DNA of 64,000 nt from Turicibacter bilis. GTDB taxonomy: Bacteria > Bacillota_I > Bacilli_A > MOL361 > Turicibacteraceae. Numbering within the stretch: position 1 is the stretch's first letter; every line of letters begins with the position of its first letter. The position numbers and the translations under genes were made by a program. The notes under the pieces were generated by a model. The model worked only from the letters and a program-made list of their open reading frames with translations, was not told the origin of the DNA and did not search any database. Location of the stretch: NCBI RefSeq assembly GCF_024499055.1, contig NZ_CP071249.1:1577501-1641500 (forward strand), given 5' to 3'. Shown here piece after piece: positions 4,243 through 59,115 of this stretch.

Positions 4243-4390
4243 AAGAAAACTCCTACTCTCTAGTTTAAAAATTATCTTGATTATATCATAAATTATTGAC
4301 AATGTCTGAGGCCTTGTTACAGATTTACGTTTTAAAAAAATTTTTTTATATCAGTGTAAATAAGTTTTTAGATTGTAAAAACTTAAGGCC

Positions 4391-4441
4391 TGCCATTCCT
4401 TAGCAATCATGGATTAGACTGTCTTGGACAATCGCTAAGGG
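4391..4441 (-). repeat. Single copy of the 51-bp two-stem intergenic repeat
   Basis: Read on the minus strand it has left arm CCTTAGC, inner hairpin GATTGTC-caa-GACAGTC, 12-base spacer TAATCCATGATT and right arm GCTAAGG. This is the architecture of the copies at 49.3 and 58.8 kb. It abuts the truncated MATE pseudogene. The dnaX promoter must lie between it and 4243, but I cannot place it. Confidence 0.7.
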
Positions 4442-4444
4442 TCA

Positions 4445-4838
4445 CAGTTGAGAATTTATAAAGGACTTCGTACGTTGATGTTGATTACGACGATTTATAC
4501 ACTATCTTCTTGTGGTATCATGTATGTCTTTGAGGGTGAGGCGCTTCGTATTTTTACCCAAATCCACTATGCCCACGTCATGCTTGATAGGATTATTCCA
4601 GCTTATTTATCATTGGTGTTGATGTAGTCCCTTGTTGGAACAATCGGCGGTCGGGAAAACGATGGTGATGATGATTCTTTCAGTTCTGAGTCTTTGTATC
4701 GTGTATGTTTTCTGAATTTTCACCATTTTAAGAATTTCCTCAAGTATTGAGGACGTAATCCTAGGTTATCCAATTTAGTAGACGCTCAGTCTTATTTTAA
4801 TGGGGCTGTATGCTTGGAAAGGAAATTGGTTACCAAAA
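4445..4838 (+). pseudogene. Decayed C-terminal fragment of a MATE-family efflux pump
   Basis: The plus-strand frame from 4457 reads YKGLRTLMLITTIYTLSSC, then MYVFEGEALRIFTQ and IIPAYLSLVLM, matching the last third of MATE multidrug/Na+ antiporters. It then hits a stop and a frameshift, after which GKTMVMMILSVLSLCIV and LILMGLYAWKGNWLPKE continue in another frame. No N-terminal two thirds exist upstream, where a repeat element begins at the break. It is non-functional. The family assignment is from memory of MATE C-termini. Confidence 0.65.
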
Positions 4839-13049: not shown

Positions 13050-13405
13050 ATGAAACAAAATAAATCTTTTTTATCCCCGTTGAAGGGCCAATTGACGTTC
13101 GAAAAACTTCACGATCAACACTACGATCAGAACATTATTCTTATCACCTTTAAAGGAGATTATGTATGAGAATCCATTTTTCGATAAGTTTTATAATAAT
13201 ATCGATGAATAAGTGTTTCAAACAAAAATGTTTTTCTTAACGAATTGCTATAAACAATAATTGAGTATTCAAAAAGATTATTTAAATGAAAATTAATCGA
13301 TTATTTCAGATTATCATTTATTAGGTTCCTTATCCTATTTTGATCACTCAAAGAGTGTAAGGTTATCCATCACTAGTAAACCTTTAAGTGAAAAACTTTT
13401 CTAGA
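13050..13405 (+). pseudogene. Probable gene remnant of unknown family
   Basis: A 39-codon frame (MKQNKSFLSPLKGQLTFEKL onward) breaks at 13167. Short coding-like stretches follow in other frames: ENPFFDKFYNNIDE, then DYHLLGSLSYFDHSKSVRL. Several stops and frame changes suggest a decayed gene. I cannot name the family and the call is weak. Confidence 0.3.
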
Positions 13406-13415
13406 CTTATATAAT

Positions 13416-41555: not shown

Positions 41556-41716
41556 AAAAAAATCCTCTTTCAGCCTATGAGTATGCTAAAAGAGGATACA
41601 CGAATTCCATAAAAATAATTGGGAATATATTAAAATATAAACGTGTTCTTCTCAGCCTCACGGGACCGAATTAAAGCTTTCTCAGTAATTATAGAAGATA
41701 CCCTATTTTTTGTCAA
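41556..41716 (-). promoter_or_regulatory. pyrF promoter and PyrR-type attenuator
   Basis: Promoter TTGACA (41711-41716), 17 bases, TATAAT (41688-41693). Then the PyrR-binding loop GGTCCCGTGAGGCTGAGAAG (about 41648-41667, minus reading), an antiterminator, and terminator arms TATCCTCTTTT / AAAGAGGAT with a T run ending near 41556. UMP-bound PyrR should favour termination. Near-identical to the uraA leader. Confidence 0.92.
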
Positions 41717-49275: not shown

Positions 49276-49440
49276 CCCTACCAGCGGAGGATAGCTACGG
49301 TCTTAATCTACGTAGCCCAGGGATCTCATTCCCTAGCAGTTGAGGATTAGATTGTCTTCAACAATCGCCAGGGATCCCATTCCCTACCAGCGGAGGATAG
49401 CTACGGTCTTAATCTACGATTAATCCACGTAGCCCAGGGA
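49276..49440 (-). repeat. Three tandem copies of the 51-bp two-stem repeat after pyrB
   Basis: Read minus, units start at about 49439, 49388 and 49337. The middle unit is CCCTGGC, GATTGT-tgaag-ACAATC, TAATCCTCAACT, GCTAGGG. The other two replace the inner hairpin by GCTACG...CGTAGC and the right arm by GGTAGGG. The first has an internal loop extension of about 10 bases carrying the pyrB stop codon. They occupy most of the pyrB-pyrC intergenic region. Confidence 0.85.
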
Positions 49441-50307
49441 TCCCACCAACACTGCCATTCGAATAAATACCCCATTACTCATTTGTTTGAAGATTCGACT
49501 ACGTTTACATTCAACGACATCGTCTGCAATTTCTACTCCGCGGTTAAATGGGGCTGGATGCATAATGATAGCTCCTTCTTTCATGCGTTTTTCACGTTCA
49601 ACCGTTAAGCCATACTGCTCATGGTATTCTTCTTTTGTTAACTGCATTCCACCGTGATGACGCTCATGTTGAACACGAAGTAACATGATAATATCCATTT
49701 CTTCTAGCACATCATCTAAGTTCTCCCATGCGTATCCTTCTTCTTGGAATTGTTCAGGAGCTACTAAGTGAACCTCCATTCCTAATCGGTTCATCACTTC
49801 GATATTTGTGTGAGCTACACGAGAGTGCGCGATGTCACCAACGATTGCAATTTTTAATCCTTCAAATTTACCGTACTCTTGATAAATCGTTAATAAATCT
49901 AATAATGATTGGGTTGGATGATTTCCACTTCCATCTCCTCCGTTGAAGATTGGAATGTTTAAATTAGGAATTAATTCTTCGAAGTAATTATTTTGTGGAT
50001 GGCGAATTACCACTCCATCAACTCCGATTGCTTCAAACGTTTTGACAGTATCGTATAACGTCTCACCTTTTTGAACACTTGACGTTTCAGCTGTGAAATC
50101 CATTGTTTTTAATCCTAATTTTTGTTCTGCCATCATAAATGAGTATTGCGTTCGTGTACTCGGTTCAAAAAAGAGATTAGCTACCACTTTTCCTTCAAGT
50201 TGTGGAATTGTTTCACCAGATGCATAACGATTAGCACGTTCTAAAATTTCCATAATTTCTTCTACTGTAAAATCTGACAATCGTGTTAAATGTTTAATAG
50301 CACTCAT
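49420..50307 (-). CDS. pyrB: Aspartate carbamoyltransferase, catalytic chain
   Basis: First committed step of pyrimidine synthesis, carbamoyl phosphate plus aspartate. The 295 residues contain carbamoyl-phosphate binding FFEPSTRTQYSF, GDGSGNHPTQSLLDLL, and HPAPFNRGVEI. No regulatory chain gene follows, as expected for Firmicutes. The last codons (GSLGYVD and stop) lie inside a 51-bp repeat. A terminator precedes it, so it probably has its own promoter: TTGTTA, 17 bases, TTTAAT is a weak candidate. Confidence 0.97.
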   Translation of the reverse strand: MSAIKHLTRLSDFTVEEIMEILERANRYASGETIPQLEGKVVANLFFEPSTRTQYSFMMAEQKLGLKTMDFTAETSSVQKGETLYDTVKTFEAIGVDGVVIRHPQNNYFEELIPNLNIPIFNGGDGSGNHPTQSLLDLLTIYQEYGKFEGLKIAIVGDIAHSRVAHTNIEVMNRLGMEVHLVAPEQFQEEGYAWENLDDVLEEMDIIMLLRVQHERHHGGMQLTKEEYHEQYGLTVEREKRMKEGAIIMHPAPFNRGVEIADDVVECKRSRIFKQMSNGVFIRMAVLVGSLGYVD

Positions 50308-52074: not shown

Positions 52075-52239
52075 ATAAAAAATCCTCTTTCAGCTAACTT
52101 AGGTAGGCCAAAAGAGGATACACGAATTCCATTAAAGGAAGATATAGTTCTATTATCTTTTAAACGTGTTCTTCTCAGCCTCACGGGACCGAATTAAAGC
52201 TTTCTCAGTAATTATAGGAGAAACAGGAAAAAAAGTCAA
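52075..52239 (-). promoter_or_regulatory. uraA promoter and PyrR-type attenuator
   Basis: Promoter TTGACT (52234-52239), 17 bases, TATAAT (52211-52216). The leader carries the PyrR loop GGTCCCGTGAGGCT (52177-52190), the antitermination segment and terminator arms TATCCTCTTTT / GAAAGAGGAT followed by TTTTTT. About 50 bases around the PyrR loop are the same as in the pyrF leader. Confidence 0.92.
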
Positions 52240-58472: not shown

Positions 58473-58784
58473 GCTAATCATCTCCACCCAACACCGATGT
58501 GACGAACTGGCTCTAGCAATGTCCTTAATTACTGTTTTATATGATATGTCTTTCATCTTCTTAAAATATAGCTACCAGTTGTATAACAAAAAAATTATAA
58601 AAGTATTGTATGTTCGGCATATTTAGACACATCCTAAAAAACTCTAATGTTATATTATCTATGACACAATGATTCAGAAGATGAAAAATCAATTAACTCT
58701 ATAGACAAATAGAAATGTTTTTCATCTTTCTAAGTCAGTCTTAGTAATTAACCGTGTTCGATATTAAGGCATCCTATCGTCCAA

Positions 58785-58937
58785 GGGTCACCTAGTGATT
58801 TCTGAAAGAAATCTATTCCTCAACTGCTAGGGCTTGGGTCACCTAGCGATTTCTGAAAGAAATCTATTCCTCAACTGCTAGGGCTTGGGTCACCTAGCGA
58901 TTTCTGAAAGAAATCTATTCCTCCATTACTAGGGCTT
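58785..58937 (-). repeat. Three tandem copies of the 51-bp two-stem repeat between the yidC genes
   Basis: Exact 51-base period from 58785, 58836 and 58887. Minus reading: CCCTAGC arm AGTTGAGGAATA spacer, hairpin GATTTC-TTTCA-GAAATC and arm GCTAGGTGACCC (unit order depends on strand chosen; arms and spacer match the 49 kb copies in reverse). The first two units differ at one base (TGAT/CGAT); the third has changes near its end. The remaining parts of 58473-59115 show no gene. Confidence 0.92.
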
Positions 58938-59115
58938 TAGTTTTTACACTGTGAAAAACTTATCTGAACTTATATATTTAATTTAGACAAAATCACATGT
59001 GGCGATATCCATTTATTGATCTTATTTTTTCAATTACAGTGATTTTATTCATAATAAATGAAAAATAAATTTCCTTTATGACAGTATTTCACCTTAAGAG
59101 AAAGAAGGCATTCAA

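Follow-up and report, generated by a model that had tools for sequence, protein, structure and literature searches.

The window, by which we mean the whole 64,000-nucleotide stretch of Turicibacter bilis DNA that was analysed, carries two tandem genes for YidC-type membrane insertases (PF02096; 57635-58426 and 59116-59910), and between them sits an array of three short repeat units with paired arms. The units lie at 58887-58934 (unit 1, stem GATTTCT/AGAAATC), 58836-58883 (unit 2) and 58785-58832 (unit 3), on the minus strand relative to the remaining units of the window; here as at the other loci, each was placed from the sequence and a covariance model. The array is enclosed in a BOX-like composite element on the same strand (58700-58976), which runs from a TATATA... 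left end at 58976 to a ...TCTATA right end at 58700. These ends match elements elsewhere in the genome that hold no unit at all (L237 against L226-L229), and the left box (TATATAAGTTCAGATAAGTTTTT, 58954-58976, minus strand) was recognised by pattern search with one mismatch.

Three further units lie on the plus strand between pyrC and pyrB: one at 49276-49327 with the stem GCTACG/CGTAGC and no flanking box, one at 49331-49378 with the stem GATTGT/ACAATC, and a last one at 49382-49444 that again has the stem GCTACG/CGTAGC, with an extra nested stem (TTAATC/GATTAA). A single unit, also on the plus strand, occupies 4398-4445 within a composite whose left box is degenerate (4347-4369, plus strand, matched with up to 4 mismatches). 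At 13391-13413 on the minus strand, a left-box pattern match marks a decayed composite in which no unit is recognisable. The preliminary description had listed seven units at 4.4 kb (one), 49.3 kb (three) and 58.8 kb (three); all are in place, and the covariance model finds exactly seven in the window. Its unit length of 51 bp holds for the 58.8 kb array and some others, but the outer units at 49.3 kb measure 52 and 63 nt without the spacer. Likewise, the inner stems do pair, except that the 4.4 kb stem (GACTGT/ACAATC) carries one mismatch.

At gathering score, Rfam 15 yields only SRP RNA and tRNA-Ser in the window, and the units match no family. Two leader-like repeats, 91-92% identical, lie upstream of pyrimidine genes at 41581-41701 and 52103-52224 (TCTCAGCCTCACGGGACCGAA); they gave no Rfam match at gathering score either, and are perhaps PyrR attenuators.

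Copy number and distribution of the units

Trained on 21 units and run on the window and then on the whole 2,786,784-base single-contig genome, the covariance model returned at least 143 credible copies, and these 143 matched units are spread over 85 arrays or single sites. About 20 more units with long hairpins lie outside its matches, in the stretches fetched around them, so the true copy number is above 143. The units range from 42 to 66 bp. In orientation A they read CCCTANYARNGGAGGATA, a variable hairpin and NYAGGTGACCC, followed by a 3-nt spacer (AAG, ATT or ATA); the scaffold is constant across units and the inner hairpin is the varying part. They occur in two settings, either as tandem arrays in a TATATA-ended element (boxed) or as lone, unflanked units within IS transposase genes. 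Loci L121, L120 and L112 hold a further subfamily, with the arms CCCCAGCA...TGCTGTGGGCCCC and a stem with a tandem G-A mismatch.

All four sampled congeners have unit matches, at least 11 each, and one of the three other family members, in a sister genus, has a weak presence of four. There were no matches in 52 further relatives, nor, under stricter filters, in about 290 genomes from other families of the phylum. We also searched the exact junction pattern against 84,980 named genomes, a set that may omit the nearest records of the window genome, and recovered Turicibacter sp. UBA7094 and one Bdellovibrionia MAG; the latter match is probably due to chance. Viral contigs, phages and plasmids gave no unit match, and we rejected a phage or plasmid origin on that ground. 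A literature search found no paper on such repeats in Turicibacter.

The loci of the window are variable within the genus. The pyrC-pyrB array is missing from the orthologous gap in congeners G001 and G002, which spans 120 and 115 bp against 269 bp here, and the model finds no units in the stretches fetched for the pyrC-pyrB loci of G003 and G004. G001 carries different units in a boxed element downstream of yidC; no boxed unit element was found there in G002, G003 or G004.

Paired arms and the folded strand

The claim that the two arms of a unit change together is borne out in three length classes. Scored at fixed positions within each class, without alignment and uncorrected for kinship among copies, arm pairing was 0.835, 0.935 and 0.889 in the 46-, 48- and 42-nt units, compared with 0.684, 0.756 and 0.817 after whole 3' arms had been redealt; none of 2000 such shuffles equalled the observed value in any of these classes. 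The 47-nt class, which is small and mixes hairpin registers, showed no excess of pairing over shuffles. At position 6 of the outer stem, 44 distinct units have G-C and 36 have C-G, giving Watson-Crick pairs with the partner position in 80 of 89; across 10,000 shuffles of this position, the mean was 43 and the maximum 59. Further copies are present genome-wide, and paired substitutions are found among them.

The preliminary description took paired change as a sign of selection or replication as a folded RNA or DNA. The folded units and the paired change stand, but another cause is possible: correction of palindromes by template switching produces paired change without selection. Because this correction yields an identical pattern, paired change is no proof of selection. 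The strong covariation of the arms would also be expected if the units were host-selected RNA or DNA structures (mRNA stabilisers, terminators or regulators, for example) with compensatory changes, and the array within the pyr operon would fit such a role. So would the lean of boxed arrays to the leading strand (33/47, p = 0.008, with origin and terminus located from the GC skew of sampled stretches, and with boxed and lone units sorted by fuzzy matching that left a few IS-borne units among the boxed), although this lean perhaps stems from gene orientation. Against host selection, presence is polymorphic at orthologous loci, the distribution is restricted to the family, the many transposase genes that received insertions have no gene function in common, and palindrome correction explains the paired change as well. 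We therefore regard selection by the host as unlikely, and host function is probably not required to account for the data.

Two observations point to strand B (GGGTCACC...) as the strand that folds. Loops of 3 nt are present in 37 of the 65 distinct hairpins, mostly as C(GNA)G on one strand, a class of triloop that forms unusually stable DNA mini-hairpins; on strand B, C-GAA-G is the most frequent combination of closing pair and loop, T-GAA-A and C-GTA-G come next, and C-GCA-G and C-GGA-G are found as well. In the outer stem, A.C on strand A (equivalent to G.T on strand B) was counted 46 times, against 2 for the reverse. In contrast, mismatches in the inner stem show no strand asymmetry (12 versus 14), which counts against folding of strand B. 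When three example units were folded by DNA energies on both strands, the drawn fold was the minimum in some cases, not all. Single-stranded DNA is favoured as the folding molecule, but not proved.

Composite elements and insertions in IS genes

Boxed arrays have the layout TATATAAGTCCAGATAAGTTTTT...AAAACTTTTA(A)G - units - CTGGACTATAG... TTTCTGTTTCTATATA and are bounded by imperfect terminal inverted repeats (TATATAAGTCCAG / TATATAGAAACAG). Left boxes are found at 61 sites in the genome by pattern search, whereas the reversed control pattern gave 0. The composite holds 0 to 9 units at one fixed position of the TATATA-ended element: among the best 30 left-box loci are complete elements of 127-129 bp without any unit (L224, L226-L229, L236), and comparison with these places the entry of units at TTTTA(A)G^CTGGAC. 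As DNA, the zero-unit element has a fold much more stable than that of shuffled versions (z = -5.6). Its TATATA ends would mask a TA target duplication, and no autonomous IS with the same ends is present among the best 30 left-box loci. A second subfamily with a different right half also includes several unit-free copies (L212, L214-L217, L223). Some array ends are bordered by ACGGCA (ACGGCATAAC) instead of the usual right flank, which indicates another entry point for units in this second subfamily.

Within arrays, the identity of neighbouring units is bimodal, with 26 of 58 pairs at 90% or more and 26 of 58 below 80% (random-pair median 0.71); arrays therefore mix tandem duplicates with unrelated units. 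In one long G003 array (L245, 1-914), the 54-bp units leave long reading frames open; large pneumococcal BOX elements are described as doing likewise.

Lone, unboxed units interrupt tnpB and tnpC of IS66 type, orfA and orfB of IS3 type and a transposase of ISL3-like look, as typed from their translated sequences. Both this genome and its congeners have unit-free copies of these ISs, and comparison with them reveals precise insertions of 44-51 bp, most of them with CAT on the left of the joint and AT again on the right. The empty site GCGTCATCGAAACG corresponds to GCGTCAT-TCCC...GACCCAT-CGAAACG when occupied, GTTACCATAATAAG to GTTACCAT-TTCCC...GACCCAT-AATAAG, and TTCCATTTCC to TTCCAT-TCCC...GACCCAT-TTCC. 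Against a model in which CAT is targeted, the 987674 insertion and the one in G003 use a different point of the unit junction, close to GACCC, for their joints. When a unit is deleted together with 3 nt, a long transposase reading frame reappears, and this holds for 49- or 50-nt inserts too. These empty sites, together with the copy number, confirm the mobile, genome-wide family of folded units that had been proposed. The lone units show no bias between leading and lagging strands (21 of 38, under approximate sorting), so lagging-strand targeting was rejected; the result argues against single-strand targeting of the IS200/IS605 kind, which predicts a bias.

Two visibly diverged IS3 copies carry an identical 42-nt unit at an identical site and are otherwise intact. 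In G003, one identical unit sits at one place in six copies of an IS, and six copies are empty. The occupied copies do not form one group: one differs by 2 substitutions from two empty copies and by at least 26 from other occupied ones. Variable sites flanking the unit show exchanged tracts, which makes gene conversion the simplest account of its spread there, and a better explanation than repeated insertion.

In locus L114 (G000:C1:1247612-1247653), the left flank of one IS, like that at 442295, meets the right flank of an IS3 orfA, like that at 502092, with a unit at the join; units probably serve as crossover points between different ISs. Several IS3 orfA copies (among L190, L169, L178, L192 and L177) have a second kind of insertion near the unit site, shorter still at 20 bp (about CGGCGTACCCCTTGCGGGTA) and hairpin-shaped.

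Units in transposase genes could in principle be spliced from the transcript or skipped in translation like introns, so that the ISs stay active. The frames on either side of the unit are undamaged, several species have unit-bearing ISs in multiple copies, and the IS copies of G001 and G004 hold the unit in frame close to the C-terminal end of the transposase. However, units lie in either orientation relative to the gene, many intact copies could supply transposase in trans, and gene conversion accounts for the spread; we know of no splicing mechanism for 45-nt elements. Intron-like removal or translational bypass was rejected on the conversion tracts and the two orientations, and is extremely improbable.

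Mobilisation and comparison with known repeats

The preliminary description suggested movement by a REP-associated tyrosine transposase (RAYT). The units are indeed palindromic, dispersed and arranged in tandem, and Y1_Tnp genes occur here and in the majority of genomes with units, and are absent from both unit-free family members. A search with PF01797, however, found a few Y1 transposases in this genome; those that we read are of IS200 type with unrelated hairpin ends of their own and carry no units there, and no RAYT gene flanked by units was seen. Moreover, the complete, unit-bearing genome of G004 has no Y1_Tnp gene. A conserved REP tag (GTAG or CGTC) beside the palindrome is likewise missing, since GTAG is confined to CCTACC-type units and the CCTAGC type has CTAG. 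With the Y1 genes being plain IS200 copies and absent from G004, and lone units lacking replication-strand bias, a RAYT is not supported as the mover, and we consider it very unlikely that these are REP-type elements moved by one.

The PD-(D/E)XK transposase family (PF12784) was set aside as a partner: this genome has only four such genes, none beside arrays. Among the Y1_Tnp and PF12784 genes examined, no mobilising enzyme for the unit was found. In Turicibacter sp. UBA7094 (L211, 4264-5460), units with long nested hairpins interrupt a PD-(D/E)XK-like gene, which is what had brought up that family as a candidate.

Since both settings and clean empty IS sites are seen, we read the unit as a tiny non-autonomous mobile element that probably moves by insertion, multiplies in tandem and is carried along by MITEs and ISs. 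Single units would travel, or be copied, in the form of single-stranded DNA hairpins (strand B), with the enzyme acting in trans, and would be joined where the target, mostly CAT, agrees over a few bases with the unit junction GACCC-ATT-CCC. Tandem duplication, along with insertion of more units at the boundaries of existing ones, may then lengthen arrays, and passive spread would follow from carriage by ISs and from exchange between their copies by gene conversion. All of this might also happen without a dedicated transposase, through tandem slippage, microhomology-mediated repair and gene conversion, as the several bases common to junction and target at most sites, the conversion tracts in the G003 ISs and the identical neighbours within arrays would allow. 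The repeated use of CAT with clean ends at many unrelated sites, and the single fixed entry position in the MITE, make such purely passive spread unlikely.

Several known repeats resemble these mobile units in part. Like Rickettsia palindromic elements, they are short palindromes inside protein genes, sometimes in frame, but they are found mainly in transposase genes, and insertion usually disrupts the frame. The mosaic intergenic arrays of small repeats formed by neisserial NIME (RS/dRS3) and Correia elements (PMC3049150) are alike by description, as small-repeat mosaics between genes, whereas in Turicibacter the inner hairpin varies on a constant scaffold. With REPs and REPINs and their RAYT (TnpA-REP), the units have in common short palindromes, high copy number, tandem and single arrangement and probably single-stranded DNA substrates. 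They differ in having no identified RAYT, an unconserved GTAG tag and an asymmetrical 12-nt bulge, and in sitting inside IS genes.

The closest anatomy in this comparison is that of BOX repeats, which have been strain-typing markers for decades and whose inner module is about 45 bp; we know of no account of how these inner modules originate and multiply. In S. pneumoniae and S. suis, boxA and boxC flank boxB modules; S. suis also has A1C1 forms without boxB, and its boxB is common to two sets of end modules (PMC3049150). The Turicibacter composite also exists without the inner unit, as A1C1 does, and resembles BOX in having a pair of end modules that bear terminal inverted repeats, inner modules whose number varies, more than 100 dispersed copies and restriction to a clade; the likeness is one of anatomy. 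Croucher et al. 2011 counted 125 BOX elements and only 17 lone modules of any type, and judged BOX dormant (PMC3049150). In contrast, Turicibacter, whose class is Erysipelotrichia, has a wide variety of inner hairpins and many lone inner units in IS genes, with demonstrable empty sites.

We therefore file the Turicibacter repeats, by anatomy, as a BOX-like system in which the mobile inner module stands out, and the unit is, on this likeness, probably the 'boxB' counterpart in a BOX-type composite system of the genus. More tentatively, the units may form an independent class of mobile DNA hairpins, separate from the carrier MITE and moved as single-stranded DNA by a putative Y1-independent enzyme. 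If so, BOX-type repeats would result when a hairpin of this kind settles at one fixed position of a MITE. The anatomy of BOX recurs here in an unrelated gut genus, and the variety of hairpins on a constant scaffold amounts to a natural library for enzyme recognition. The natural occurrence of unit-free elements, solitary units and unoccupied sites makes it possible to test which steps are transposition and which are tandem duplication, and which enzyme cuts the unit.
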